64,000 nt of DNA from Tricholomella constricta (Eukaryota > Basidiomycota > Agaricomycetes > Agaricales > Lyophyllaceae): positions 186,001 through 250,000 of the forward strand of contig JAACJP010000020.1 in assembly GCA_013368375.1 (NCBI GenBank). The letters run 5' to 3'. This document shows positions 512 to 64,000 of this stretch, piece after piece (the first letter of the stretch is position 1; each line of letters starts with the position of its first letter). The translations under genes were made by a program, and so were the position numbers. Under the pieces are notes generated by a model. That model ran no database searches. It had not been told where the DNA came from and saw only the letters and a list, made by a program, of their open reading frames with translations.

Positions 512-2817
512 CTTATATAGGCTTTATAAATAAATAGACAAGGGATAGGATTCAAATCAGATTTCGTCCCCTCACGGTTACATAGAGATGAACATATGTA
601 TAATATTTGACATCTACATAGCACATTGTAATTTTAGACTACGGCGACATGTGTCCCCTACGCCCCTACGCTGACTCCCAGTGAAAGACGATGACCAGAC
701 CCTCGTAAATACAGTATCCGCGTCGGGATGAAGTTGACGAGGCAAGTCGGACCTATAACAAAGGATGACCCCTGCGTTAATTGAAAGAGATCGAGAAAAA
801 GCTATATTGTGACCCATTGTCACCTGTGACAGCCAGTGGACAGGCTCGTGGATTGTTTGTAGGCATGAACAACTACAGAATCAGAGATGACATACCTAGC
901 TAGAGACTACCAAGTCTTGAATGAGCAATAATAGTGGTTGCCCTAAAGATCAGATATGTCAGTGTGAGAAGCGAGTTGTGCACAGGATAGCATAGCAGCG
1001 TCACAGCGACGACATGGTGCTTGAGCCAACAGAGTGCCCACAGAATGGGCGAACTCTATACAAGGGACCACAAGCACCACGCAGGAATGATCCTCCCGCG
1101 AATGACAGAAAAAGAAGAAGAGTGGGGGTTGAGAAGAGGAGGCAACCGACGTGGCAACGAAACCGGGGCTTAATGGACATTGAAGCGGAGTTTAATTGGA
1201 CTTGTCATTTCTTTGCTTTTTGTCACATGCAAAGTGATCCATCGACCACTTGTGGGGGTGCGCATGGCCCGGTAAATTTTTGTGATGTTTGTCAATATTT
1301 TATTCAGATGTTTCCCACTATGAAGGAAGCTTCATCGCGCCCATCCCGATTCCTTTTGCCTGCGACATGTCCTCGCAAACTTTGAGAAAGAGAATTATGT
1401 ATATCTATCCTGGCTCGCTTTCTCCAGAAAAATATTCTTAAAATCACAAAAACTGATAGCTATGCAGACATGAATGACACTTAGAATTTTGATTCTGGAC
1501 AAATCCTTCTGGACATCGAAAGGTACTGAGTGATAGATGAAGTGTGCAAAATATCGAATGTGTACGCGTCGTGGGCATGGAGATTTTGGGTCGCCAAAAC
1601 CGACCGCCCAAACCACGCGCTGCGTGACAAATCGCGTGACATAACGCATCTGCTCAACGTGCGCTGAGAGTTCTGGGGCCGCCAGGGGGAGAGTAGGTCT
1701 AAATTTCATTGGGTCAGGTAAGTAACTACTGTAATAATCCTATGCCCGAATTTTAGGTGATTTGTTGACAGGAAAGAAGAGGAAATTTTGAAACATACCT
1801 ATGTCCTGATCTCCCTCCTCCATCATCCCGATAACGGCACTTATCATTCTATACGCTCCAAGAATACATGCCATTCATAGGTACTTTGAATTTCTTGAGT
1901 TGGAAAAGACACAAAATGTGGCTGATTGGTGTGAGGAGGGGGAGGAGATGGGAGATGAACATGAGATCTAGATTTCAATACTAGCTCCAAATAAATTCAA
2001 TTTGACTATACTGCATGTATGCAGGGTATACCTGGCACCTTTCTGCTGCCTTAACTTTACTTGGAACATAGTGAAGAGGTGTTTTTTGGTCTTACAATCC
2101 ATGGGACACAATTTCGTGATACTGCTTACTAAGCATCACAGAAACGGAACCGGTGATGCGCACCCCCACCACTTGTGAACCCTTGCAATGTGAGGTGGCC
2201 CCTTGCAATGTCGTCAGACTACACAACCCAGAGTTAGATTGGGGTAGCGGTAGGATTGTCTGAAACAGGATAGACCGGGAATCAAAGCTCTGGTTGCCTT
2301 GGGTCCGTTTATGAGATGACCTTGGTCTGGTTGGATTGTGATGAACCCCAACCCAGACCTGGCGCACCCTTCAAGCCCGGCTGAACCAGGGGTGAACCTC
2401 GGCCAAGTTACTTCCCACGCCAGGTGCAACCAAACAACTGGAATTGGAAGGCGTCACGTCCCGCACTTCACGTGTTGCAGTTCACGTGTGTGTTGAACTT
2501 TGCCATATTTTTTCGTTGTTTCCTGGTTGTTCCCAACCGTCAATGTCCTTGTCATTGTGCCCCACCTTGGATCACTGTTTATTGCTGCCCCCCTCAATTT
2601 TCACTGCCCGGCCAGCTTTTGCCTCAACATGCTCACCATCGAGTGGTTTGGGTCCGGCACTCTGCTGCAGAGGATTTAGGGTAACACCATCAGCTTGCAG
2701 TTCGACCACCCACGTCTTGGCTCCGCTGGCAGATGAGTTTGAGAGAAAAGGTGTGCTGCATCCCCTTCACTGTCCATTTACTTTGCTCATAGCATCATCC
2801 AGTTACCGGTGGCGCGG
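512..2817. other. Intergenic region with no supported gene
   Basis: I see no conserved protein, RNA gene or clear splice-compatible coding series here. The open frames are short, lack recognisable motifs and do not join across plausible introns. The stretch around 1200-2050 is AT-richer than the gene-dense part of the window. It is flanked by solo LTRs on both sides and is probably old repeat-rich intergenic DNA. Confidence 0.5.
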
Positions 2818-3840
2818 TGATGAGCACCGTCCCGCGCTGTACACCGAACCTGCCCATAATACGGACATCAACCGCTGCGCCACGACGAACGCGGTCCCGA
2901 ATGCGACCAAAGCGCTAAACCGACCGACTGACAATACGACCAAATGACCGACGCACCGACCAAGAAACAAAGTAACTTGAAACGCCAGTTCTCCTCTCTG
3001 GGCGCACAGAGCACGGAACGCCGTATAACCTGTCAACGACCGCGCACGTTCGGATGCCAAGGTCTCAACCCGGCGACAACCAAACCTGATTTGAAATGAT
3101 CCTAGGAAACACCGTTGCCCAGCCAGTCGCAGGAAGGATCCGGCCGTACCACGGAGTTCCGCACCCAAGAGCCACTACCGATCGCAAAGCCACCACCGAT
3201 CATACATCCGACCCGACGCCTCGAGCCGATCAAAAGCCCCTTTGCTGAGCCAAAGAGCGCCACACTCTCTAAAAAGCGTCGCGCGGTACCAAGCTTGGCG
3301 GCGCTTCTCCCAATAATCCAGTAAAACACCTGCCTCGCCGGCTCGCGCGAGGCGAGTCGGTCGTATAGTATAAAAACATACCCATGTATTACCTACTTCC
3401 CCCAGTGAATTACAGCCCGTATTTTCCCTCACACTCAGAGTGAATAGCTCAAACCATCGTCTCTGTCGTCTCTGCTCCGTTCCCATCGTATAAACCGCCG
3501 CCGCCATCGTAAAACTCGTAACCGCCGTCTCTGTCACCTCGTATTCGTCGCTCGAACCCGTGAGTTCTCCGTATTAACCTCGTTCGTCTCGTTGTCGCAT
3601 GACCGACACCGAAAGTCGCGTCGCCGACAGGTTCCATCTGGGAACGTCGTACACCATCGCCTTCATCGTATCACCGTCGGTTCGACTACTGACAAGTCGG
3701 ATCGCCTTTTACCTACCTCAAACAACATTTACAAACCCTGCACACTCGCGTGTTTGGGAACTTTTAACACTTCTCGCCCCCCATAGTTGTTAGTTGTTTT
3801 GTTGTTGTGCACAGCACCTACAGGCCTTCTAGCTCTATCA
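2818..3840 (+). repeat. Solo LTR, family A (about 1 kb)
   Basis: The unit starts TGATGAGCACC and ends CTCTATCA, giving TGAT/ATCA termini. It matches the 5' LTR of element A at 54644-55685 along its whole length. A TATA-like stretch (tagtataaaaa) lies near 3366. The four bases before it (2814-2817) and after it (3841-3844) are both GCGG, consistent with a 4-bp target-site duplication. No internal element sequence is attached, so this is a solo LTR. Confidence 0.9.
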
Positions 3841-3844
3841 GCGG

Positions 3845-48379: not shown

Positions 48380-49712
48380 ATGTCTGAGAACGACTCAAGG
48401 ATTGGTGACATCCCTGCAGATGTTGCTGAACGTCTTCGGGCGAAAGCTGGGCGATTCCGCATCCTCATCATCGGAAGAGCCAACGCCGGAAAGACGACGA
48501 TTCTTCAGAAAGTGTGCAACACCACAGAGGACCCAGAAATATTTGATAGTGAGGGAAACAAGGTGTGTGCCGGGCATATCACCTTCGGCCGAGCCTTTAC
48601 TCATTGTTCATGGGTTACAGGTTGATCTAGCTACTGTTGATCCATCAGGAAAGGTGGGTACTCCCGATTGCAAAAGGGTGTGATCTGAATTGGATACATA
48701 GCGTGGCATGCATGACATCAATGATGAACTGGTGTTTCGCAGCAACCCAGGATTCATTTTTCATGACTCTCGCGGCTTCGAATCTGGGGGTGTCGAGGAG
48801 TTGGAAGCTGTGAAGAACTTCATCACGGAGCGTGCCCAGGAGGTCACACTTTCTGCACAGCTCCACGTCATCTGGTGTGGAAACATATTCCAGATTTTCT
48901 GACGATCTATGCTCAAAGAAAGACAGGTACTGCCTCCCAATGGACAATGATCGTCCTGTCACAAGAGCAGAAGAGTTTTTCTTTAATGAGTGTGGAACTG
49001 GAAAAGGTGTGAATTGTTATTGTTATAACCTTTCACTGTGTTCAATGGTTGGAATAGTTCCAGTTATTTTACTTTTTACCAAGTTTGATGGATTTATTGT
49101 TTCTACATTTGGTAAATTGCTGAACCAGATCGATGATGTGCAACAAGCATTTGCTTTAGCCCCCAAAAAGGCTACTGCAGATTTTGATGGGCTGCGTCCC
49201 GGCCTTGATGTTTATAAACACAAGTATCCTCCCAAAGCTTATGTCTGTCTCCAAGGTATATAAATTTTGATATTGACTGGTTCTTTTAATTAATGGGCTT
49301 GGTTGACAGACATGGATAAGCCAGAGGCAACATGCAAAGATCTGATCGAACAAACTTCACTTGCTCTGGATAACAGGACCCTCATCCAGGTATTTGTTTC
49401 TACGCAGCAAATCACAGTAGAACTTTGTACCAGATATGGCATTGAGTCAGTGATTTTTTAATTAAAAATATCAAATAAAGCATAATAAGATTTTACAGAG
49501 AATTTCTTGAATATACATTAGAAAAAAATGATGTTGAAAGATGTTTAAAAAGTATGGCAAATTGGTATACACATGCAAAGGTATAGATTTACATGCTTAA
49601 AGTCAAATCACGTGTATATGGAGCTGTTGGTGGCTGACTTTTGGAATTACAGGAGGTAACAATAGTATTTCAGCTAATTTGTGCCATGCTGAGTATCTGG
49701 GGCAATTTTTAA
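48380..49712 (+). CDS. P-loop G-domain GTPase, C-terminus replaced by tandem-repeat sequence
   Basis: Exons 48380-48562, 48621-48653, 48702-48874, 48927-49006, 49058-49255, 49310-49445 and 49499-49580 join without a phase error. A final exon 49653-49712 would end at TAA, giving about 314 residues. Motifs are G1 GRANAGKTT, G3 DSRG in HDSRGFE and G4 TKFD. It belongs to the same basidiomycete G-domain group as the 21061-23803 protein but lacks the N-terminal C2-like domain. It stops before the hydrophobic C-terminal segments of that paralog. The last exon runs into the tandem array, and its end (CAMLSIWGNF then stop) is repeat sequence. From about 48960 the DNA becomes markedly AT-richer. The protein may be a recently altered or inactive paralog. 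Confidence 0.7.
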
Positions 49713-51540
49713 CAGAATGTGAGTGGTGTCGATGGCCTGTGTAAGGTGCAAGGCTGACCAGGAGCTGTGACTTGGCCCAAAACAGGTGAGTATCTGCACT
49801 GGCTAACCTGTGCCATGCTGAGTGTCTGGGGCGGTTTCTGACAGGATGTGAGTGGTGTCTGGCCTGTGTAAGGTGCAAGGCTGACCAAGAGCTGTGACTT
49901 GGCCCAAAACAGGTGAGTATCTGCACTGGCTAACCTGTGCCATGCTGAGTGTCTGGGGCGTTTTCTGACAGGGTGTGAGTGGTGTCGATGGCCTGTGTAA
50001 GGTGCAAGGCTGACCAGCAGCTGTGACTTGGCCCAAAACAGGTGAGTATTTGCACTGGCTCACCTGTGCCATGCTGAGTGTCTGGGGCTATTTCTGACAG
50101 CGTGTGAGTGGTGTCGATGGCCTGTGTAAGGTGCAAGGCTGACCAGGAGCTGTGACTTGGCCCACAACAGGTGAGTATCTGCACTGGCTCACCTGTGCCA
50201 TGCTGAGTGTCTGGGGCTATTTCTGACAGCATGTGAGTGGTGTCAGCGGCCTGTGTAAGGTGCAAGGCTGACCAGGAGCTGTGACTTGGCCCAAAACAGG
50301 TGAGTATCTGCACTGGCTAACCTGTGCCATGCTGAGTGTCTGGGGCGATTTCTGACAGCTTGTGAGTGGTGTCAGCGGCCTGTGTAAGGTGCAAGGCTGA
50401 CCAGCAGCTGTGACTTGGCCCAAAACAGGTGAGTATCTGCACTGGCTAACCTGTGCCATGCTGAGTGTCTGGGGCGATTTCTGACAGCTTGTGAGTGGTG
50501 TCAGCGGCCTGTGTAAGGTGCAAGGCTGACCAGCAGCTGTGACTTGGCCCAAAACAGGTGAGTATCTGCACTGGCTAACCTGTGCCATGCTGAGTGTCTG
50601 GGGCTATTTCTGACAGCTTGTGAGTGGTGTCAGCGGCCTGTGTAAGGTGCAAGGCTGACCAGGAGCTGTGACTTGGCCCACAACAGGTGAGTATCTGCAC
50701 TGGCTAACCTGTGCCATGCTGAGTGTCTGGGGCTATTTCTGACAGAATGTGAGTGGTGTCAGTGCCCTGTGTAAGGTGCAAGGCTGATCAGGAGCTGTGA
50801 CTTGGCCCAAAACAGGTGAGTATCTGCACTGGCTAACCTGTGCCATGCTGAGTGTCTGGGGCTATTTCTGACAGTATGTGAGTGGTGTCAGTGGCCTGTG
50901 TAAGGTGCAAGGCTGACCAGGAGCTGTGACTTGGCCCACAACAGGTGAGTATCTGCACTGGCTAACCTGTGCCATGCTGAGTGTCTGGGGTGATTTCTGA
51001 TTTCTGACAGCGTGTGAGTGGTGTCGATGGCCTGTGTAAGGTGCAAGGCTGACCAGCAGCTGTGACTTGGCCCAAAACAGGTGAGTATTTGCACTGGCTA
51101 ACCTGTGCCATGCTGAGTGTCTGGGGCGATTTCTGACAGCGTGTGAGTGGTGTCGATGGCCTGTGTAAGGTGCAAGGCTGACCAGGAGCTGTGACTTGGC
51201 CCACAACAGGTGAGTATCTGCACTGGCTAACCTGTGCCATGCTGAGTGTCTGGGGCTATTTCTGACAGGATGTGAGTGGTGTCTGGCCTGTGTAAGGTGC
51301 AAGGCTGACCAGGAGCTGTGACTTGGCCCACAACAGGTGAGTATCTGCACTGGCTAACCTGTGCCATGCTGAGTGTCTGGGGCTATTTCTGACAGGATGT
51401 GAGTGGTGTCTGGCCTGTGTAAGGTGCAAGGCTGACCAGGAGCTGTGACTTGGCCCACAACAGGTGAGTATCTGCACTGGCTAACCTGTGCCATGCTGAG
51501 TGTCTGGGGCGATTTCTGACAGGATGTGAGTGGTGTCTGT
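49649..51540. repeat. Minisatellite of 127-129 bp units, about 14.5 copies
   Basis: The block ggtgagtatctgcactggct recurs at 49785, 49912, 50041, 50170, 50299, 50428, 50557, 50686, 50815, 50944, 51080, 51209, 51336 and 51463. Spacing is 129 bp, with 127-bp variants (deletion of ga-type dinucleotides) and one 136-bp variant holding a small internal duplication. Units are well over 90% identical by eye, so the expansion is recent. A degenerate first unit overlaps the predicted last exon of the GTPase. Because 129 is a multiple of three, one minus-strand frame is open across several units (43-codon repeat); 127-bp units break it. Confidence 0.96.
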
Positions 51541-52572
51541 GTGAGGTGTAGATATCATTCTTTTCATACTAACATTATTTGATCTCAGGTAAGTGTCATA
51601 TCTAGTTGAACAAAACAACATCTACATAATACTCAACATTGTTGCTTATAGATGGTAAGCTTTCTTTTCTATTTACCCTTTTGATTTATTTTGTACCCTG
51701 TTTCTGTTCATTTGCCTTCAGCATGAGTCACTTCCTGATCCCTTTACTCATGATTTCTTTTTCAGCTGGTATGTATGCCTTATCTCGGTCCTTAGTAGCC
51801 AACTTTTTCAACTGCAGCCATCACTGTAGGGTGTCCATGTGAGCTTGCAAATTGCTTAACTCACTTCTTACTCATACAATCATTTAGGAAGAAGTGGGCT
51901 TCATCATAACTCTTAATTTTTCCTTGCGATACAAGTTCTGAACAGGAATTCTTCTTTTCTGCCATAATACAACAATTATCCAGCACTGTGAGTCAAGTGT
52001 TGTGGCCACATTCATTATTTTCCCTCAACCTTTGGTAATTTCACAGGCTGCATCTCTTCCATCAAAACAACAAGAAATCATTTTTCTTGTCCTGTGTACT
52101 GTCTACACACCTTTATTTTTGTATGGCCAAAACTTACATGCATTATTTTTTAGCACTTGCTATTGTTGCAGAACATTCATATCCCATCTTTGGTTCTCAA
52201 CACTCCTTCCAACAGTCACTCAAAGTCTATTCCAAATCACCTCAATGTAAATCAGTGCTCAAGGCTATTCTTGGTGGCCAAAGCACCAACAAAAAGTGGA
52301 TGAGACAGCTGAAGGACAAGGTTACCAAGAAGAAGGTCAAAGTGATGCCAGAGACACTGATCAATGTTATCAAGGACAACACTTTGGGTATAGCTAATTC
52401 TCTTACTTCATATACAAATAACTGAATATAACATACAGCAGCCAGTGACTGATCACATTCATGTAATAATTGGCCAAAGTGTAGCAATGTTCAGATAGAA
52501 AATTAACACAGAGATATTGAGTGCAATACTACAAAATAATGTGTGCTGGACAAATGTCAAGATTGTAGGGGC
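51541..52572. other. AT-rich region after the array
   Basis: The sequence is much AT-richer than the housekeeping block. A Lys-rich open segment (about 52190-52425, including SVLKAILGGQSTNKKW) could be a real exon, with a possible acceptor near 52170. I cannot connect it to the GTPase or to a start codon. It may be the displaced 3' part of a gene split by the tandem array, or an unrelated remnant. Confidence 0.35.
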
Positions 52573-52665: not shown

Positions 52666-53164
52666 TGTTAGGGCGACCTTACAGTGGAGCGCTATCACAC
52701 AGGCAAAGGGGAATCCAAAGTTATATTGATGTACAGTAACGAATGTAGGTAAGGCTTACCTGGCAAAGGGGAATCCGAAGAGAATAGTGTAAAGGATTCC
52801 CCAATGCCAGAGGGCTGACTATATACGAGTGTAGTACGTGAGGGCCAGCTCTCATGGTGTACTGTACACGTAATAATAATGAATGGTCAGCAGCGCGTGT
52901 ATGGACACGTTCCCGACACTGTCTGATCCTCGTGGCTCAGGGTGCGAGCACAAGGTCGGGCGGCTGACATCGGGATGTCGGGACGTTGGGGTCAGGATCG
53001 GGGCACGCGCTGGAAGGGGGAGGTAATGATAGGAAAATCTAAGTATGTACACCAACGCTTGGGTCGGAGCGTCGGGGTTGGGATCGCGATCGGTCAGGAG
53101 CGATCGCACGAGTCGGGGGACGGTCGGTGAGCATCAGAGGGCGCGAATGGGTGTTTCCCTAACA
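52666..53164 (-). repeat. LTR, family B, full length without matching TSD
   Basis: It begins TGTTAGGGCGACC and ends TTTCCCTAACA. The flanks (52661-52665 GTGGC; 53165-53169 TCACC) do not match, so the target-site duplication has been lost or the copy arose by recombination. The family TATA-like motif (ctatatacgag) is retained near 52818. Confidence 0.88.
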
Positions 53165-53171
53165 TCACCCC

Positions 53172-53608
53172 TGTTAGGGCAACCTTATAGTGGAGCGCTA
53201 TCGCACTAGCAAAAGAGAATCCGAAGTTGTATTAACTGTACAGTAAACGAGTGTATGTACTGCTCACCTAGCAAAGGGGAATCCAAAGAGAATAGTCTAA
53301 GGGTTCCCCGATGCTGGGAGGTGTGCTATATACGAGTATGGTACTTGAGGGCTGGCGCTCTGTACAGTCAATGTAATGATGGTGTGCAGTGTGTGTATGC
53401 GACATGTTCCCGAAAGTATCCAACCCTCGTGGCTCAGGGTACAGAGCACAAGGTCAGATTGTCGGTCGCGACGTTGGGGGCGACGTCGGGGCGGCGTCGG
53501 GATCGGTCAGTGCATCAGAAGGGGATTAAATGAATGTAGAAAGGTAGGGATATATATGTACACGACACTGGGGTCGGAGCGTCGGAGATGCGATCAGGAT
53601 CGGGACAG
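53172..53608 (-). repeat. LTR, family B, truncated at its right end
   Basis: It begins TGTTAGGGCAACC seven bases after the previous LTR. It is collinear with it, but the final approximately 50 bp including CCCTAACA are missing. It abuts an oppositely oriented LTR fragment. Confidence 0.82.
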
Positions 53609-53798
53609 TGTCAGGGGAACTCCCATTCGCGCTCTCCGACACTCACTGGTCGTCCCCTGACTGCGCACGATCACTCTTGTCCCCATCCCGATCCCATCCC
53701 CGACGCTCCAACCCCAGCGTCGTGTACATACTCCTACATTCATTTAATCCTCTCCCCGACGCATACCCGACACCGATCCCAATAACCCGACATCCCGA
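53609..53798 (+). repeat. LTR fragment, family B, opposite orientation
   Basis: It starts TGTCAGGGGAACTCCC, the plus-oriented 5' end of family B, and runs about 190 bp until cut by a family A LTR end at 53799. With the preceding minus copy it forms an LTR inverted repeat. Confidence 0.78.
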
Positions 53799-54297
53799 TG
53801 ATAGAGCTAGAAGGCCTGTAGGTGCTGTGCACAACAACAAAACAACTAACAACTATAGGGGGCAAGAAGTGTTAAAAGTTCCCAAACACGCAAGTGTGCA
53901 GGGTTGAAGGTGTGGTTGGACGGAGGTAAAGACGGTCCGACTCGTAATTAGTCGAACCAACGGCGATGCGACGAATGCGATAGTATGCGATCGTTCCCAG
54001 CTGGAACGGGTCGGCGACGCGACTTTCGGTGTTGGTGGCGCGACAACGAGACGAACGAAGTTAATACGGAGAACTCACGGGTTCGGGCGACGAGTACGAG
54101 CTGACAGAGACGGCGGTTACGAGTTTACGGCGGTGGCGACAGTTTTACGATGAGTTTATACGATGAGAACGATTCGGAGACGACAGAGACGGCGGGTTTT
54201 GAGCTGTTAACTCTGAATATGAGGGAAACTACGGGCTGTGATTCACTGGGGGTTCCTATGTACTACATGGACGTGTTTATATGGTAAGGTAAAATCA
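53799..54297 (-). repeat. Partial or short-variant LTR, family A
   Basis: It begins TGATAGAGCTAGAAGG, the reverse complement of the family A LTR end, and is similar to 3350-3840 reversed through the TATA region (catataaaca). Similarity fades near 54297 (ATCA). It is either a short subfamily or a truncation. The next 346 bp (54298-54643) are unassigned. Confidence 0.7.
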
Positions 54298-54643
54298 CCA
54301 ACCCTTAGTGCGACCATGCAGGCGTTTCACGTTAGGTCGTCGCCAAGTCTGGTACCGCGCGACTCGTTTATGAGGCCAGGGTGAGTGTGGCGCATTAATG
54401 ATCGGATACCAGTGTCGGGTCGGATATGTGATCGGGGAAGTCGGTGATTGCGGGACTCCGTGAGACGGTCAGATCTGTGCCGTGAATAGGAGACGGAATG
54501 GCTTGCCGGTAAACGCGTCATCGATAAGGCGCCAAGTCGGGTATTGACATTTGACAGACGAACGTGCGTAGTCGCTGGCTGATTACATGGTTACTCCGAT
54601 CCCGAAGGCCGAGGGAAAAGGTCGGCCGAATTGCGTAAGTCGC

Positions 54644-55685
54644 TGATGAGCACCGTCCCGCGCTATACACAGAACCAGCCCATAATACGGACATCAACCG
54701 CCGCGCCACGACGAACACGCTCCCGAATACGACCAAAGCGCTAAACCGACCGACCGACAATACGACCGACTGACCGACAATACGACCAAACGACCGACGC
54801 CCCGACCAAGAGACAGAGTAACTTGAAACGCCAGTCCTCCTCTCTGGGCGCACGGAGCACGGAACACCGTATAACCTGTCAGCGACCGCGCACGTTTGTA
54901 TGCCAAGGTCTCAACCCGGCGACAACCAAACCCGATTTGAAATTACCCTAGGAAACCCCTTGCCCAGCCATTCGCAGAGAGGATCCGGCCGCACCACGGA
55001 GTTCCGCCTCCAAGAGCCACTACCGATCGCAAATCTCCCACCGATCACACATCCGACCCGACGCCTCGAACCGATCAAAAGCCCCTTTGCCGAGCCAAAG
55101 AGCGCCACACTCTCTAAAAAGTGTCGCGTAGTACCAAGCTTGGCGACGCTTCTCTCAATAAACCAGTAAAACACCTGCCTCGCCGGCTCGCGAGAGGCGA
55201 GTCGGTCGCATAGTATAAAACATACCCATGTAGTACCCATTTCTCCCAGTGAATTACAGCCCGTATTTTCCCTCACACTCAGAGTGAATAGCTCAAAACC
55301 ATCGTCTCTGTCGTCTCTGCTCCGTTCCCATCGTATAAACCGTTGCCGCCATCGTAAAACTTGTAACCGCCGTCTCTGTCACCTCGTATTCGTCGCCCGA
55401 ACCCGTGAGTTCTCCGTATTAACCTCGTCCGTCTCGTTGTCGCACGACCGACACCAAAAGTCGCGTCGTCGACCCGTTCCATCTGGGAACGTCGTACCCC
55501 ATCGCCTTCATCGTATCACCGTCGGTTCGACTACTTACGAGTCGGATCGCCTTTTACCTACATCAAACAACCCTTACAAACCCTGCACACTCGCGTGTTT
55601 GGGAACTTTTAACACTTCTCGCCCCCCATAGTTGTTAGTTGTTTTGTTGTTGTGTACAGCACCTACAGGCCTTCTAGCTCTATCA
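54644..55685 (+). repeat. 5' LTR of element A
   Basis: 1042 bp, from TGATGAGCACC to CTCTATCA, matching the solo LTR at 2818-3840 throughout. A TATA-like tagtataaaac is present near 55210. It is followed by a primer-site-like sequence and gag. Confidence 0.92.
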
Positions 55686-55688
55686 TTC

Positions 55689-56170: not shown

Positions 56171-57271
56171 ATGGCACAACCACCAATCATTGTAAAACCG
56201 ATGCCCGCACGCGGACAAAGCTCGGCACTGACGTTCGTGCCCGAACGTGCGCGCGAACTGCGCCGATATTTCTCGGACTTGAATCATCTCTTCATCGAGT
56301 GTAACGTCGTAGACGAACAGGAAAAGAAAATGCACACTACGCGATACACTGATATCGATACCGCGGATCTGTGGGAGCAACTTGACGAGTTCGCAGTCGG
56401 TATCACACACGACGACTGGCGAAAAGCGATAATGGCGCTTTACCCGGGCGCAAGCGAAGAAAGAAAGTATTCAATGGCCGACCTCGACCACCTGATCAGA
56501 GAACGACACCGACTTGGGATCCAGTCGAATAGCGATCTCGGGGAATATTACCGACAGTTCCTTTCTGTTACCCAGTTCCTTGTCAGCAAAAACCGACTTT
56601 TGATAAACGAACGCGACCGCCAATTCCGTCGCGCGTTCCAGTCCGATCTATGGTCGAAGATCCATCGCAGGCTCGAGATCCTAAACCCGAACCACCATCC
56701 CGATGACCCCTACGCCACGGAAACCGTTCGCGCTGCGGCTGAACATATCCTCCACGGGACAAGCGCCGTCCAACGACAGGAAGCGCCACCGGGCGCACCC
56801 CCACAAGTTACGATCGCGCCAAGCGGGTCGTTAATGGGCGCGACCAAGTCGCCTAGCACGGGACAGCCCCTCAAGTTGGAAGAGCTCTACGAAAGAATCA
56901 ACCTGTTGGAACAACATATCCAACGCTTAGGACAAGACAAAGGAGGCGACGGCGGTCGGCCGAACCAGTCACCTAATGACAACTGCCACTTCTGCGGTGG
57001 TGAAGGACATTATATCCCTAACTGTCCCATACATCAAACATACGCGACCGAAGGGCGCTGCCGACGAACTGACGACAACAAGATAGGCCTACCAAGCGGC
57101 GCGCGCATACCGGCGGGAACTCCAGGTCGATACATAAAAGACAAGCTAGATGAGTGGCACAGGCGCAACCCCGGCCAAATGACGACAGGACTGTTAGGGG
57201 AACACCTGTTTGGTGATCACGTGACCATCCGATTCCTCGGACGAGCACGTGACCGACCGCTCCCCAGATGA
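56171..57271 (+). CDS. Element A Gag protein, 3' end interrupted by element B
   Basis: The frame is open from within the LTR, but the first ATG is at 56171. The protein is a retrotransposon Gag with a capsid-like helical core (DLNHLFIECNVVDEQEKK... onward) and a CCHC zinc knuckle at about residue 272 (CHFCGGEGHYIPNC). After 57191 the frame runs into the inserted LTR of element B and ends at 57271, so the last about 27 codons are not Gag. Protease, RT and integrase of element A would lie beyond the nested insertions, outside the window. The upstream region 55690-56170 is also open in the same frame and could be translated from a non-ATG start. Confidence 0.8.
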   Translation: MAQPPIIVKPMPARGQSSALTFVPERARELRRYFSDLNHLFIECNVVDEQEKKMHTTRYTDIDTADLWEQLDEFAVGITHDDWRKAIMALYPGASEERKYSMADLDHLIRERHRLGIQSNSDLGEYYRQFLSVTQFLVSKNRLLINERDRQFRRAFQSDLWSKIHRRLEILNPNHHPDDPYATETVRAAAEHILHGTSAVQRQEAPPGAPPQVTIAPSGSLMGATKSPSTGQPLKLEELYERINLLEQHIQRLGQDKGGDGGRPNQSPNDNCHFCGGEGHYIPNCPIHQTYATEGRCRRTDDNKIGLPSGARIPAGTPGRYIKDKLDEWHRRNPGQMTTGLLGEHLFGDHVTIRFLGRARDRPLPR

Positions 57272-57688
57272 TCGCGATCCCGACCCCGACGCTCCGCCCC
57301 AAGCATCGGTGTACATACTTATAACTTCCTGTCGTTACTTCCCCTTCCAGCGCGCGCCCGATCCCGATTCCCGACATCCCGACGTCGGTCACCCGACCTC
57401 GTGCGCCTGCACCCTGAGCCACGAGGATCGGACAGCGTCGGGAACGTGTACATACACGCGCCGCTGCCCATCTGTTATCATTTACGTACCATACACCCCA
57501 GAGAGCCGGCCCTCAAGTAGTTACTCGTATATAGTCATCCTCCTGACATGGGGGAATCCTTTACTCTATTCTCATTGGATTCCCCTCTGCCAGGTAGGTC
57601 TACTTACGTTCTCTCTAATCGTACATAATATAACATTGGATTCCCCTCTGCCAGCACGACTAAGCTCTGCGCTGAGGTCGCCCTAACA
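57192..57688 (+). repeat. 5' LTR of element B
   Basis: 497 bp, starting TGTTAGGGGAACACC and ending CGCCCTAACA. The five bases before it are AGGAC and the five after it GCAGA, so it is not a solo LTR but the left end of an element whose right end lies outside the window. A TATATA box is at 57528-57533. Confidence 0.92.
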
Positions 57689-57690
57689 GC

Positions 57691-57702
57691 AGAATAGAGT
57701 AA
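57691..57702 (+). promoter_or_regulatory. Self-complementary primer-binding site of element B
   Basis: AGAATAGAGTAA lies two bases after the LTR. It is the exact reverse complement of TTACTCTATTCT at 57561-57572, 33 bp downstream of the LTR TATA box, where transcription should start. This matches the arrangement of Tf1/sushi-type elements, whose own RNA 5' end primes reverse transcription. Confidence 0.75.
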
Positions 57703-57815
57703 CTCTAGAAACCCGACGAAGCCGACCGATCCGCTTCCGCGCCGAAACACGCGTCTGCTACACGCGACCGTCCAACGCGCGCTCGCCCCGATCGCCCGTC
57801 CAGTCCCGTTTCGAG

Positions 57816-59024
57816 ATGTCCGAATTTGGTGACATGTCGCAGCGACCGTTCTCTCCCTTCCTCACGACGGAGGAGCGGTTGGCGAATATGGAAGCCACAA
57901 TTTCGGCTCTCTCTGCCTCCAATACCTCCAACTCGGCCTCTATGGACCGCCTCTCCGCTCTTTTCGAAAAATTCATGTTGGGGACACCCCCCAATCCCAC
58001 CCCCGCTGCTCCCGAAGCAGACACGACCCCCCCGCCGCCTGAGACGACCACCCCGCTGCCAGGCTCTCCGCGATCGGGATCGCACCACCTCCGACCGTCG
58101 CCCCCTCCCATTTACGACGGCGCCCGATCGGGCGGTCGCGCGTTCTTGAACGCCTGCAAGCTCTACTTCTCCTTGTGCGGGGGAAGTTTCGCCGACGACC
58201 ACGCCCGAATAGTATGGGTGCTGTCGTACATGCAGCACGGGCGAGCCGCCGACTTCGTCAGTCGGGTGTTCCAGTTCGGAACCGCCAAGGACGTCTTTCC
58301 CGCCTGGAAGGACTTCGAAGACACCTTCCGTGGCGAGTTCTTCCTCTTCGACGAGGTCGCCGATGCCGCGCTCATCCTGGAGTCGACGGCGTACTTCCAG
58401 AACGGTCGATCGATCGACGAGTACATCGACTCGTTCCGATCCCTGTGGGTCAAGGCAGGCTACCCAGATGGGCGTCACCTGGTCCTCAAATTCCGTCGGG
58501 GAATGGACCCGAAGCTCTCGAGGCGACTCGGAAGCATCACCACGGGTCGCCCGCACGATGAGAAGATTGAGGAGTGGCTGAGGATCGCTCGTTCTCAAGA
58601 CTTCATCATGAGGTCGGAGGACGACTTCCACCGTCGGATGGTCCCGACAAAGGCGCCCGACAGCCGCCCGCCCACCACCGCAGCTGCACGATGGGCGTTC
58701 GCTACTGCCCCCGCTCCCGCTCCCGCTCCCCCCGCCCCCCGCGCTCCTGCCGCACCAGCCCCCAGGCCGATCCCCCAGGGCATCCCAATGGACGTAGATC
58801 GGATGCGCGACCGAGTCGCGCCTGCCGACGACCACTGTTTTCGGTGCAAGAAAAAGGGTCACTACTCTCGTGACTGCCCTTTGCGCTGGGACGTGCGCCA
58901 CATGCTCGATGATGAGCTGGAGGCGCTTATCATGGAACGTCTAGCTCGCAAGGACGCAGTCCCCGCCGACCCGACTCCATCGTCGGCCGACGCGACCGCC
59001 TCCGACGCCGAGGAGGGTTTTTAA
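57816..59024 (+). CDS. Element B Gag protein
   Basis: 402 codons, intact, from the first ATG after the leader. It has an N-terminal coiled-coil stretch, a P/T-rich linker and a Retrotrans_gag-type capsid core (RAFLNACKLYFSLCGGSFAD, then YIDSFRSLWVKAGYPDG). An A/P repeat region and a CCHC knuckle at about residue 341 (CFRCKKKGHYSRDC) follow. It ends GGT TTT TAA, where a frameshift signal leads into pol. Confidence 0.93.
   Translation: MSEFGDMSQRPFSPFLTTEERLANMEATISALSASNTSNSASMDRLSALFEKFMLGTPPNPTPAAPEADTTPPPPETTTPLPGSPRSGSHHLRPSPPPIYDGARSGGRAFLNACKLYFSLCGGSFADDHARIVWVLSYMQHGRAADFVSRVFQFGTAKDVFPAWKDFEDTFRGEFFLFDEVADAALILESTAYFQNGRSIDEYIDSFRSLWVKAGYPDGRHLVLKFRRGMDPKLSRRLGSITTGRPHDEKIEEWLRIARSQDFIMRSEDDFHRRMVPTKAPDSRPPTTAAARWAFATAPAPAPAPPAPRAPAAPAPRPIPQGIPMDVDRMRDRVAPADDHCFRCKKKGHYSRDCPLRWDVRHMLDDELEALIMERLARKDAVPADPTPSSADATASDAEEGF
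59015..59021 (+). promoter_or_regulatory. Putative -1 ribosomal frameshift site (GGGTTTT)
   Basis: In the gag frame the codons are G GGT TTT TAA, fitting the X XXY YYZ rule, and the stop codon follows directly. Slipping one base back gives GGG TTT TTA ATT, which stays open into pol. No ATG start for pol is needed under this model. Confidence 0.7.
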
Positions 59025-61045
59025 TTACACAACGGGTGGAACGTACGCCCCCGTTGTCTAGTCGTAATCGGTTCGCTCCTTTATCCGTAGAATACGCCAA
59101 TACACCTAATATTGCTGCTATTCCGACGAGTGAACCGACCGACAAAGACGTACAAAACCCCTCCGACCCGACGACACCAATCGCAGTCGCAAAGCCGATC
59201 GCCCCGTCGCGTCGTGGCCTACCCCGCTGGGAAAAGCGACTCCCTAGTCGCTTCATCGCCGCTGCCTCCCCCTGCCCCAGATCCCTGTGGCTCAACGTCG
59301 AACTGGAGACCACCGACACCCAGGAGTCGCATGCCGTCACTGCCCTAGTGGACAGCGGAGCGACTGGCAGTTTTCTCAATGTTGCTTTCGTCGAGAAACA
59401 CAAGCTCACAACCAAGGTGCTTAGTCGGCCATCCCCGGTTTACAATGTGGACGGCACTCTCAACGAAGGCGGTTCGGTCTCTTGCATCGTAGAAGCTGTC
59501 TTGCGATACAACGGTCATACCGAACGAGCCGTCTTCGGGGTCACCCAGTTAGGCAAGCAAGACATGATCCTCGGGTTCAACTGGCTTAAAAACCATAACC
59601 CCGAGATCGACTGGGAGACCAAGGAGGTGAAGATGAGTCGCTGTCCGACGCAGTGCGGCACCTGCAAGGACGAGGTCAAAGCCGATCGGCGCGCACGCAC
59701 CAAAGTGCGCGCAGCGATCCGCGCCTGTCGAGCCGACGGTATACCGATGACTGAGCCCGACCTGCGAGCCCCGACCAACCCGTATGTTGAGGACGACTCT
59801 GATGAGGAGGAGTTCCTCCCCTACACCCCGGTCCTGGAGGAACCTGACCCAGAGTCTGACGACTTCCTGGTGGAAACCTTCCTGAGTGGCGATCGCATCT
59901 TCGCGACCGCGATCCATCCGACTCCGACCGCCGAACATATTCGGGCCAGCCAAACGACATCGCAGCGACTTGCGGAAGCGCACGCTGCTAACTCCGTGCC
60001 CAGAACTTTCCGCGACGCAGTACCGACCCACCTCCACGACTTTGAAGATGTCTTCTCCAAAGTCGCATTCGATGAGCTTCCAGAGCGCAAGCAATGGGAC
60101 CATGCCATCGAACTGGAGCCGGGCGCGTCGCCGACGGGCACAAAGGTCTACCCGCTCTCACCGGCAGAACAGGTCGAACTCGACGCGTTCCTCAAGGAGA
60201 ACCTCGAGACAGGTCGCATCCGACCGTCCAAGTCGCCCATGGCGTCGCCGGTCTTCTTCATCAAGAAGAAGGACGGGTCGCTCCGACTGGTTCAGGACTA
60301 TCGGACGCTCAATGCGCTCACGGTGAAGAACCGATACCCGCTGCCCCTCATTAGCGAACTGGTGAATAACCTTCGCGGCGCGCGGTACTTCACCAAGTTG
60401 GACGTCCGATGGGGGTACAACAACGTGCGGATCAAGGAAGGCGACGAGTGGAAGGCAGCGTTTCGGACGAATCGCGGCCTCTTCGAGCCGCTCGTCATGT
60501 TCTTCGGCCTCACGAACAGCCCCGCCACATTTCAGACCATGATGAATGATATCTTCCGCGATCTGATCGCTGAAGGTGTTGTTTGCGTGTACCTCGATGA
60601 CATCTTGATTTATACAAAGACGCTAGAGGAACACCATCGGGTCACGCGACTGGTACTGGACCGACTCCGCGAACATCAGCTGTTCTTAAAGCCCGAGAAA
60701 TGCGAATTTGAGCAGACTAAGATCGAGTATCTCGGGCTGATCATCTCGCAAGGGCAAGCGGAAATGGATCCGGTTAAAGTCGCTGGAGTGTTGGAATGGC
60801 CGGCGCCGAAGAATAAGAAGGAGGTGCAAGCGTTCCTAGGCTTCACCAATTTCTACCGACGGTTCATCCAGGACTTCTCGCACCACGCCCGACCCCTGTT
60901 CGATTTGACAGGCAAGGACGTCGCCTGGCGATGGGGAGAGTCGGAGCAGTCGGCCTTTGCCCTTCTGAAGTCTGCGATCACATCGGGGCCAGTCCTCATG
61001 TTCCCCGACGACGATCGACCGTACCGCATCGAAGCCGACTTGTAA
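59025..61045 (+). pseudogene. Element B Pol polyprotein (protease, RT, start of RNase H), truncated by element C
   Basis: The frame is -1 relative to gag and open from the frameshift site. The Ty3/gypsy order is clear. The aspartic protease motif VDSGATGSF is at 59348-59374. The RT has KLDVRWGYNNVRI, FFGLTNSPATFQ and the catalytic YLDD near 60590. The connection is PVKVAGVLEWPAPKNKKEVQ, and the start of RNase H is PYRIEADL. The stop at 61043-61045 comes from the first bases of the LTR of element C, which interrupts the RNase H active-site region. Rest of RNase H and integrase must lie beyond the window. Confidence 0.92.
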
Positions 61046-61273
61046 CGACGGCGCGTTACAATACATTATATTGAGACGCGACCTGTTTGGCATTACCTTC
61101 TGGTAATGCACGACCATCTTTGTTATGCGTATATAAATGTCCTGTACAGTTTATGCTTAGATAATCCTTGGCACCCTCACCCTGTACACGTACTTAGCAG
61201 AATCCCACAGATTGGTCTAGCTTAACGTGTCTGGTGTCTCGCAAGGATCCCCCAACCCCGTACAACCGTTACA
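61041..61273 (+). repeat. 5' LTR of element C
   Basis: 233 bp with inverted ends TGTAACG...CGTTACA and a TATAAA box at 61132-61137. It sits inside the RNase H coding region of element B; the expected target duplication is CGACT (61036-61040). The primer site after it is not obvious. Confidence 0.87.
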
Positions 61274-61387
61274 CTTTTTTAAGCTACCCAGCTTTGCTAT
61301 CTGCTTAACTGCTCTCTATCTTCGACGTCGACTCGCTTATCAGCGCCATCACCATCACCACAACCCTGAAACGAAGATCTATCTGCG

Positions 61388-64000
61388 ATGGATCCAACCC
61401 GAGCGCCACCGAGCGCTACCAGCGCTGAAAACACACCAACGATACAATCTATCGTCGATCCGCCAGTACCGCGACCTCCTATAGCCTATGTGCCGCCTCA
61501 ACGTCGTTCGGACGAAGTCGGGCAAGGTGTAGCAGCAGCAGAGGGACCAACAGCGGTAAGTAGCCTGGAGCTACTATCAATGCACGCCACAGAGCGCCCA
61601 GCCGCAAGGTTAGGCACTCTGGGGGTCGAAACTGCTGAAGATGCGAGTCTTAGACATGCATCGGACGATGGCCCCGTACGATTGGCTCTGCAACAAGCGT
61701 ACGCCGCGTACGCCGCCTCCCCGGCCCCCACTGCTGCACCACAGTCTTCGGTACAAGCCCCGGTACACGCCAACACGGATAACCAGTCGGTTACGAGTGC
61801 GTACCTTCGACGACGGGCGTTATCGCCTGTCAGCTCGACGGCAGAATCGGACAACGGGACCCTGAACATCTTCAGGTTCTCGCCCCTCCTCAAGCGCCAG
61901 GTGCACCTCTACTGGTCAGAATACCAGTCGATGGTCCCAGACGCTAGTCGACGTACTCAGATGAATGAGAACGCGCTAGGCTCCGCCTACGTACACTGTG
62001 CGATCATGGACACGGAGCCTGATACGAACAGTATCGAATTTGTAAAGCTAGTTATCGAAGGCATTCGCTTCGAAATAGATAACTATCCTATGGCCACTGT
62101 CTTGGAAGCATCGAGGTCTTCGACACCGAAAGCTCCGCAAGTAACAGTAGGAACGACACAAGCAGCCGACAGCATCGGCCCTGTGCTCACCACGCCTGTA
62201 AAAATCGAGGATCGTGTGGATGAAACACACGACGGCGTCAAACCGATTGAGGAAAGGCCTGCGCCTGCTCAAACACTACGGTTCACGACTGAGACATCAC
62301 CGCCTGTGATACAAGTCCCTGGGAATGCATCCCGTCGATACCCAATGGCAGACTCGTGGGCAGACAGAGTCGCCCTCCAGCGCGAGCGGGATCGAGACTT
62401 GCAGCAACAGGGTCATTCGGTTTACGATGACCAGGGAGTGATCTTTATCGGACGTCAGCCCGTCGACCAAATGAAGAGCATTTATTTCGAGTCGATTGGA
62501 CAACCTCACGAACAGGATAATAATGTGCAGAGTGCCCCCTACGATGAGCACCTGCAGGGACGTGATCAACAGCAAACATTTGCTAGAGATCGACCTCCTC
62601 ATGAGACTCCCGTAGTTCGTACGCATTTTACAAATGCTCGCGGACGCGGTAGGGGAATGAGCATCGTGAACCCTATATCCCGAAACCCAGGTAGATCAAG
62701 TGAAACCCCTGGGCGTGGGTTCTCGATGCCTCCGCAAGTGCGGTCAACTTCCCGAAACCCTGGAGTCGCTGAAGCCGTGGAACAACACCGAGATTCTATG
62801 CATGTACGCTTGAAAGCGCTGCTAGAAGAACAACTCGGTACACGCCTGCAACTTCCCGAGGGTAGTAAATTGAGGCGATCTGACGCGTCCAAAACTATAA
62901 CTCCATACGCTGGAGGAACCAAGTTTAGCGACCTTGAAAGGTGGCTAACGGACGTGTGCGTTCATTTAGCCGCATGCCAGTATGGTGGCGACGAACGCGA
63001 CCGTGAACGCGTGCTCGTTGTACCAGAGTTTCTCAGAGGAGAAGCTAAGACATGGTACCAGCGCCACGTCGTTCATGTAAACCGTCGTCAACGCCATTGG
63101 ACGTTTGAAGACGTCATTCTTGGATTGTATGATCGCTTTGTACAGCCGTCAACAATGCAGGATGCACGAGAGGACTTCTACGATGCTACTTATAATGAGA
63201 GCATCGGAGTTCAAGGGTTTTATGACGAGCTCATGGACCACGCACAAAATATGGCTGTGTTCCCAGACGAATACACCGTGCGTGATACCTTCCTGGAAGG
63301 TATACCCAAAGATATGCTCGTCGCCCTAATTAAGGAAGGTGGATTGTCACCTGAGATAAATACAGTCGATGAGTTTGTCTCCGAGGCGAAGGCGTATGAG
63401 TCTGCCTCTAAGACAGCTGCGCACTACCTTGCTCGAAACTCACGCCGTCGTTCGCGCCGGAATCCCGAAGTAACATCTTCGAGGCCCCGCGGAGGTGGGC
63501 GAATCGGTACCACTTTCATTCGCAAGTCCGCCTTAGCAGGAGGACTACACGCGAGAGTGGTGGCTACGCCACTGCGTGGACGAGGAGGAAAGGTGGGAGT
63601 GCAAGCACGCCCCGACCCGAACTCGGGTGCGCCACCCAATAGACAGTTGGAACGGCCCCAACTGCATTCATCTCCGACACCGAATCCGTCACCAGCGGCA
63701 GATGTCATCTGCTACAAATGCGGAAAGAAAGGTCATTACTCGAGAGAATGTAAACAGAAACCGTACCCCGTGCGTGCTCAGATACGAGCAGCTCGGACCG
63801 CAGTTGATGAAGAGGACGATGATTCGGAAATGGATCAGGAGAATGAGGCTGATGACGAGAGTGGACATACCTCTGCTAATGAAGCGGATAATCCACCTGA
63901 GTCGTTGGTAGACAGCGACAGCGATGAACTCATTGAGGTCGATGTCTATGATAATGACTACTACTCCCGAGACAACGAGACTGAAGTCCTGAGGGCGATA
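61388..64000 (+). CDS. Element C Gag protein (runs off the window)
   Basis: 871 codons are open from ATG at 61388 to the window end with no stop. The N-terminal about 470 residues are low complexity, with acidic, Gln- and Arg-rich stretches. A Retrotrans_gag capsid domain follows (about residues 515-680, with ITPYAGGTKFSDLERWL, EFLRGEAKTWYQ and YDELMDHAQNMAVF). A basic Arg-rich linker precedes a CCHC knuckle near residue 775 (CYKCGKKGHYSREC). An acidic tail continues to the window edge. It may be Gag alone or a Gag-Pol fusion. The uninterrupted frame suggests a young copy. Confidence 0.9.
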   Translation, partial: MDPTRAPPSATSAENTPTIQSIVDPPVPRPPIAYVPPQRRSDEVGQGVAAAEGPTAVSSLELLSMHATERPAARLGTLGVETAEDASLRHASDDGPVRLALQQAYAAYAASPAPTAAPQSSVQAPVHANTDNQSVTSAYLRRRALSPVSSTAESDNGTLNIFRFSPLLKRQVHLYWSEYQSMVPDASRRTQMNENALGSAYVHCAIMDTEPDTNSIEFVKLVIEGIRFEIDNYPMATVLEASRSSTPKAPQVTVGTTQAADSIGPVLTTPVKIEDRVDETHDGVKPIEERPAPAQTLRFTTETSPPVIQVPGNASRRYPMADSWADRVALQRERDRDLQQQGHSVYDDQGVIFIGRQPVDQMKSIYFESIGQPHEQDNNVQSAPYDEHLQGRDQQQTFARDRPPHETPVVRTHFTNARGRGRGMSIVNPISRNPGRSSETPGRGFSMPPQVRSTSRNPGVAEAVEQHRDSMHVRLKALLEEQLGTRLQLPEGSKLRRSDASKTITPYAGGTKFSDLERWLTDVCVHLAACQYGGDERDRERVLVVPEFLRGEAKTWYQRHVVHVNRRQRHWTFEDVILGLYDRFVQPSTMQDAREDFYDATYNESIGVQGFYDELMDHAQNMAVFPDEYTVRDTFLEGIPKDMLVALIKEGGLSPEINTVDEFVSEAKAYESASKTAAHYLARNSRRRSRRNPEVTSSRPRGGGRIGTTFIRKSALAGGLHARVVATPLRGRGGKVGVQARPDPNSGAPPNRQLERPQLHSSPTPNPSPAADVICYKCGKKGHYSRECKQKPYPVRAQIRAARTAVDEEDDDSEMDQENEADDESGHTSANEADNPPESLVDSDSDELIEVDVYDNDYYSRDNETEVLRAI

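Follow-up and report, generated by a model that had tools for sequence, protein, structure and literature searches.

How is minus-strand DNA synthesis primed in element B, a long terminal repeat (LTR) retrotransposon lying in a 64,000-nt stretch of the Tricholomella constricta genome (contig JAACJP010000020.1, positions 186,001 to 250,000 of the forward strand; hereafter the window, in whose numbering all coordinates are given)? The initial annotation had proposed that the element uses the 5' end of its own RNA, having noticed complementarity between the 12-mers at 57561-57572 and 57691-57702. Both 12-mers were indeed found there, and they match perfectly over 12 nt. From the comparison of related copies in the host genome, we propose that the 10 nt at the start of element B's own RNA serve as the primer for minus-strand synthesis. 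This reading, in which element B counts as an LTR retrotransposon of the Ty3/gypsy chromovirus type, is given a probability of roughly nine in ten. The features at the 5' end of the element are as follows.

57192 to 57688, forward strand: 5' LTR of element B, with exact 8-bp terminal inverted repeats TGTTAGGG (57192) and CCCTAACA (57688).
57528 to 57533, forward strand: TATATA box; the proposed start, A57563, follows 35 nt downstream.
57563 to 57572, forward strand: putative self-primer ACTCTATTCT, proposed to form nt 1-10 of the RNA and paired in 43-44 of 44 elements at each position.
57691 to 57700, forward strand: putative primer-binding site AGAATAGAGT; the AA that follows (57701-57702) is not a conserved partner.

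The layout of this region agreed with the earlier description. The LTR ends at 57688 and is followed by GC and then, two bases past the LTR, by the primer-binding site (PBS) at 57691; position 57561 lies 33 nt after the first base of the TATATA box (57528); and no TGG of the kind that marks a tRNA-type site occurs in 57680-57760.

The 44 Mb host genome was searched with a pattern that fixed the cores of both arms, the upstream arm (R1-R12, 57561-57572) and the primer site (PBS1-PBS12, 57691-57702), and left two positions free. This gave 244 and 242 hits on the two strands, compared with 0 and 2 for the reversed-pattern control; because matched arms hit once per strand, these hits were read as approximately 243 elements, a figure that excludes copies with mutated cores or with a short, 57-nt spacing. 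At the two variable positions, the arms occurred as matched pairs, with CT, CA, GT, and GA in the upstream arm accompanied by AG, TG, AC, and TC, respectively, in the primer site. The arms in the sampled loci were ACTCTATTCT/AGAATAGAGT, ACACTATTCT/AGAATAGTGT, and AGTCTATTCT/AGAATAGACT, and the GA/TC arms, AGACTATTCT/AGAATAGTCT, were found in a single copy (L086). A second pattern with the primer site left free (CCTAACANC, 10-26 N, GARACCCG) detected 108 and 106 junctions (control, 2 and 0); among the approximately 100 junctions listed, the primer site began with AGAATAG, except for one AGATTAG and one AGGATAG, and its positions 8-9 were AG, TG, AC, and, once, GG. Searches of the whole genome for the principal kinds of mismatch returned 0+0, 0+2, and 0+0 hits against the ~243 elements, the two hits being C17:504065 (locus L085) and C28:173866. 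These searches held both cores and R3/PBS10 fixed; mismatches at position 5/8 were covered for arms ACTC or ACAC and sites AGAGT or TGT, and at position 4/9 the coverage extended to R4=G or to PBS9=C.

A tree was constructed from 44 distinct segments aligned without the two arms, one locus (L097) being dropped because its R arm is absent. The loci came from three sources: 20 were chosen by similarity to the window, 30 by a pattern that held parts of both arms constant, and a further 20 for variety from the pattern listings. The 44 rows comprised 16 CT/AG, 20 CA/TG, 6 GT/AC, and 1 GA/TC elements, the remaining row being a broken CA/GG pair. On this arm-free tree, R5 and PBS8 changed three and four times, and R4 and PBS9 three times each. 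The CT/AG class formed one supported group; GT/AC required three changes and CA/TG four, with at least two in each case forced by well-supported branches. The initial annotation had named covariation between the two arms among copies as a check on its proposal, and this check, run here, was passed, with four matched combinations at two positions. The ~243 copies fall mainly into three matched classes, with a fourth read in a single copy; they amount to natural compensatory evidence within one genome, and this evidence narrows the likely end of the primer to a single base. Compensatory change between the R arm and the primer site inside one genome was not described in the titles or abstract openings of the papers listed by the literature searches.

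The match had also been held to be specific to the element's own pair, and this part of the proposal needs qualification: the 221-bp segment from R to PBS gave 40 scored genome matches (the window copy included), all at 100% identity, with 37 sharing the top score. Three other LTRs in the window deviate from the 12-mer, as had been noted, by one base at 174-185 and at 52781-52792 and by two bases at 53289-53300, and none of them is followed by a primer site. They carry the GT, CA, and GA arm classes; thus, they belong to sister classes with matched pairs of their own and are not mutated copies of element B.

Of the 12-nt match, the 10 inner pairs (57563-57572 with 57691-57700) held across the family, whereas the outer two were not conserved. 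Position by position, R3-R12 were paired with PBS1-10 in 43-44 of the 44 elements, compared with 32 for R2/PBS11 and 29 for R1/PBS12. On the tree, PBS12 and PBS11 changed seven and six times, but R1 only once and R2 not at all. The outer primer-site dinucleotide was CT, CC, GT, AC, or CA besides AA among the junctions listed, and a pattern requiring AA gave 208 and 203 hits genome-wide, compared with 244 and 242 when AA was not required; if TT is about as constant throughout the genome as in the sample, AA is kept in roughly 170 of the 243 elements. Because TT remains constant while its AA partners vary, TT appears to be held by something other than pairing. The metazoan initiator consensus is YYANWYY, and TTACTCT fits it with A as the start, the two varying positions falling on N and W. 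These observations suggest that TT (57561-57562) is retained for its role in the promoter and that A57563 is the first base of the RNA; since only 10 pairs are conserved, we likewise infer a start at A57563, which would probably yield a 10-nt primer. In 17 of the 19 loci scored (L086 being outside this count), a TATA motif preceded the R 12-mer by 31 or 33 nt, and the other two, L088 and L097, had no such motif within 60 nt upstream.

A 12-nt primer, with the RNA starting at T57561 and TT/AA forming part of the functional pair, is unlikely. Element B itself does pair over 12 nt, a majority of elements remain paired at positions 11 and 12, and RNA with 5 additional nt still pairs in silico; however, the changes at these two positions fall almost entirely on the primer-site side, five other dinucleotides take the place of AA, and only the estimated 170 or so of the 243 elements keep it.

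Leader RNAs of the family were compared as 34 distinct segments, and RNAalifold was run without constraints on 31 of them. In addition to the primer helix, a stem-loop in U5 was predicted, as listed below.

57645 to 57648, forward strand: 5' side of the predicted U5 stem (CCTC), including two pairs with two-sided changes (UA in 17 and CG in 11, and UA in 22 and CG in 9, of 31).
57654 to 57670, forward strand: predicted U5 apical hairpin (57654-57659 with 57666-57670), with one covarying pair (GC in 16 and AU in 14 of 31).
57674 to 57677, forward strand: 3' side of the predicted U5 stem (GAGG), the partner of the CCTC side.

The outermost helix of the prediction was exactly the 10-bp R:PBS helix, with two compensated pairs, and the predicted U5 stem, of the form CCYY/RRGG, adjoins it. 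In the predicted structure, 98.3% of the cells were paired, compared with 32.8-52.6% when the structure was slid along the alignment, and 52 cells showed two-sided changes, whereas shuffles gave 18.9. Pairs with a two-sided change numbered five, which is not above shuffles (269 of 500 reached this number), and neither was the number of further pair types, which 494 of 500 reached. For RNA beginning at A57563, the predicted R:PBS pairing probability had a median of 0.96 and exceeded 0.5 in 32 of the 34 elements.

It is very unlikely that the arms pair only for RNA structure (packaging, dimerisation, or translation) while a tRNA or tRNA fragment serves as the primer. Pairing by itself does not demonstrate primer extension, the R:PBS helix adjoins the conserved U5 stem, and half-tRNA primers are known in some plant copia elements (PMC6317226). 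However, the helix lies where a primer site is normally found, two bases past the LTR, without TGG nearby, and among 20 of the 59 tRNA matches, compared with CCA added, the best complementary run to the primer site was 7 nt and the best 3'-end identity 8 of 18. For these 20 tRNA genes, priming of element B was set aside.

Self-priming by the 10-nt primer could proceed as follows. Transcription would start at A57563, and the RNA 5' end would fold back onto 57691-57700, adjoining the U5 stem-loop. RNase H would cut after nt 10 and free the primer ACUCUAUUCU, and reverse transcriptase (RT) would extend it through GC into U5. The retained primer would be copied in turn, so that the primer site would be rewritten from the R arm in every cycle. 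Such rewriting would keep the arms matched and end the match at the RNA 5' end, and may thus account for the near absence of mismatched copies and for the sharp 10-nt edge. Selection on pairing could also explain the match, but it would explain the 10-nt edge less simply. That the match was inherited from one ancestor, or arose by chance, and was not maintained carries next to no weight: family B copies are near-identical and similarity alone would preserve an initial match, but the classes carry different yet matched arms, with two well-supported contrasts per position and changes that are nearly always joint, and the chance of a match in one element is 0.0037 for 10 nt and 0.00025 for 12 nt (first-order Markov simulation of the LTR, six start positions, 57688-57693).

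Several points weigh against self-priming as proposed here. Broken pairs occur in L085, L087, L088, and L094, the R arm is deleted in L097, and C28:173866 is a mismatch hit whose arms were not read; moreover, the mismatch searches miss some types (PBS8 in the GT and GA classes, and R4=C with PBS9 A or T). The 44 tree rows are a non-random sample and provide two independent contrasts per position on well-supported branches, so that a sign test cannot reach significance. The RNA 5' end was placed from sequence rather than from transcripts, RNA begun 5 nt upstream pairs equally well in silico, and the tRNA comparison covers 20 genes of the 59 matches.

The proposed start site is flanked by a conserved palindrome, CTGACA..GGGGAATCC / GGATTCCCC..TGCCAG, with the primer lying in its loop.

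57543 to 57559, forward strand: left arm of the palindrome, with pairing segments 57543-57548 and 57551-57559.
57577 to 57593, forward strand: right arm of the palindrome, with pairing segments 57577-57585 and 57588-57593.

In 19 of the 34 segments, 91.4% of the palindrome cells were paired, with three two-sided pairs, a number reached by 23 of 500 shuffles. This covariation is modest: two of the three two-sided pairs come from one sequence each and the third from three, and column pairs 12-56 and 17-51 were unpaired in 6 and 8 of the 19 sequences. When the RNA was begun 5, 10, or 22 nt upstream of A57563, the median R:PBS pairing was 0.97, 0.77, and 0.01, and exceeded 0.5 in 33, 21, and 9 of the 34 elements; that is, 22 added bases were predicted to abolish primer pairing in 25 of the 34 copies. 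We tentatively raise the idea that the palindrome acts as a gate, such that only RNA begun at about A57563 leaves the primer free, but regard it as doubtful in view of the modest covariation and of the pairing that survives 22 additional nt in 9 of 34; the palindrome would also be accounted for by a DNA-binding dyad in the promoter. If the gate exists, the hairpin would block primer pairing in read-through RNA and at the transcript's 3' LTR copy, and reverse transcription would be limited to correctly started RNAs. Of interest to specialists are the shortening of the proposed primer to 10 nt and the palindrome at the start site, the latter being the least expected finding.

A direct repeat, GGATTCCCCTCTGCCAG, was also observed inside the LTR, at 57577-57593 and 57638-57654, 61 bp apart. 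The distance from R to PBS was 57 nt in L091, L093, and similar copies, compared with 117-118 nt elsewhere, and the short copies look as if the stretch between the repeats had been lost.

The coding region of element B begins downstream of the primer site.

57816 to 59024, forward strand: gag open reading frame (ORF) of 402 aa, with Pfam matches to Retrotrans_gag and a CCHC zinc knuckle.
59018 to 61040, forward strand: pol, read in the -1 frame relative to gag and encoding protease, RT, and the beginning of RNase H before the break at 61041.

According to Pfam matches, element B and a sister copy encode a Ty3/gypsy-type gag and a pol with RT and RNase H. The sister copy L105 (C2) matched RNase H, a zinc-binding integrase domain, the core integrase (28.6 bits, under the Pfam cut-off of 32.6 bits), a Tf2-1-like SH3 domain, and a chromodomain; the pol of the window copy is interrupted ahead of the chromodomain region, and the evidence for this domain comes from L105. 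In an RVT_1 search of the genome, a 1379-aa open frame was found at 34 of 150 scored matches, indicating that copies with an open pol exist. The best protein relative, with 71% identity over 95%, belongs to Lyophyllum shimeji, a species in which source names such as "tf2 155 kda" occur. A flanking ORF also had its best match in Lyophyllum shimeji (72% over 59%), and both matches suggest an Agaricales host close to the Lyophyllaceae.

The gag frame terminates with G GGT TTT TAA (59012-59024) while pol stays open in the -1 frame, and this could be a -1 frameshift site. Among 37 rows with a gag frame longer than 250 aa, some of which represent the same element twice, the end GGGTTTTTAA was found in all 18 rows with element B's primer site and in 4 of 6 with a TGTCT site, and the end GGATTTTTAG in 11 of 13 rows of the TGTAA/TGTGT class; the remaining four terminate earlier.

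In its domains and primer layout, element B is read as a new, strongly supported member of the known Tf1/sushi-type kind. Tf1 has a single ORF; in contrast, gag and pol of element B lie in separate frames. A stem-loop-like RNA structure in U5 is reportedly required in Tf1, going by the title of Lin and Levin's 1998 paper, and element B likewise has a predicted U5 stem-loop. The Tf2-1-like SH3 domain and chromodomain of the sister copy are further likenesses to Tf1/Tf2.

Self-priming is described as first demonstrated in Tf1 and later implicated in other hosts (PMC4600332), and the first 11 bases of Tf1 match its primer site, with the cut between bases 11 and 12 (PMC7175516). As in Tf1/Tf2 of Schizosaccharomyces pombe, the proposed RNA 5' end of element B is complementary to a site just past the LTR, but 10 pairs are conserved in place of the 11 described for Tf1; a start-site palindrome like that of element B is not described for Tf1 in the text consulted. 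Tj1 of S. japonicus is active in a transposition assay and, like element B, has a primer site complementary to its proposed RNA 5' end (PMC4600332); set against Tj1, element B has its pol in the -1 frame after the G GGT TTT TAA end. Self-priming has also been proposed for Tcn1 of the basidiomycete Cryptococcus (PMC7175516), to which element B is likened by its proposed self-priming. In plants, matches of 10 bp or longer led to a prediction of self-priming in 12% of elements, and most plant Tcn1-clade elements, in mosses and clubmosses, are predicted to self-prime (PMC6317226), whereas one study reported no evidence of tRNA priming or self-priming for SM-Tcn1 of Selaginella (PMC2864245).

A nested LTR element (TGTAACGACGG...) is inserted in the pol of element B at 61041-64000. 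Its 5' part had 40 scored genome matches including itself, the other 39 being at 93-99% identity; these matches run beyond one candidate LTR end, 61209. A TGG lies 3 nt past this end, but none of the 20 tRNA 3' ends had it as either of its two best placements; the tRNA-type TGG site previously attributed to a neighboring "element A" could not be confirmed. Self-priming of the nested element is a weak candidate, with only an 8-nt match located 5 nt past one candidate LTR end.

A second high-copy gypsy-type family (L051-L081) has 1535-aa open frames. In L081 of this family (4 kb) and in a second stretch, L084, no inverted 10-nt pair was found within ~400 nt, the LTRs probably lying outside the stretches scanned; GGA/GGC-type codons abound in one stretch of L081 upstream of RT. 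Elsewhere in the window, a tandem array of ~129-bp units occupies 49605-51550, with 12-13 copies listed, many of them 94-95% alike, and a dispersed repeat occurs at 2815-3844, 53795-54126, and 54641-55686, with one copy inverted and the copies 90-96% alike.
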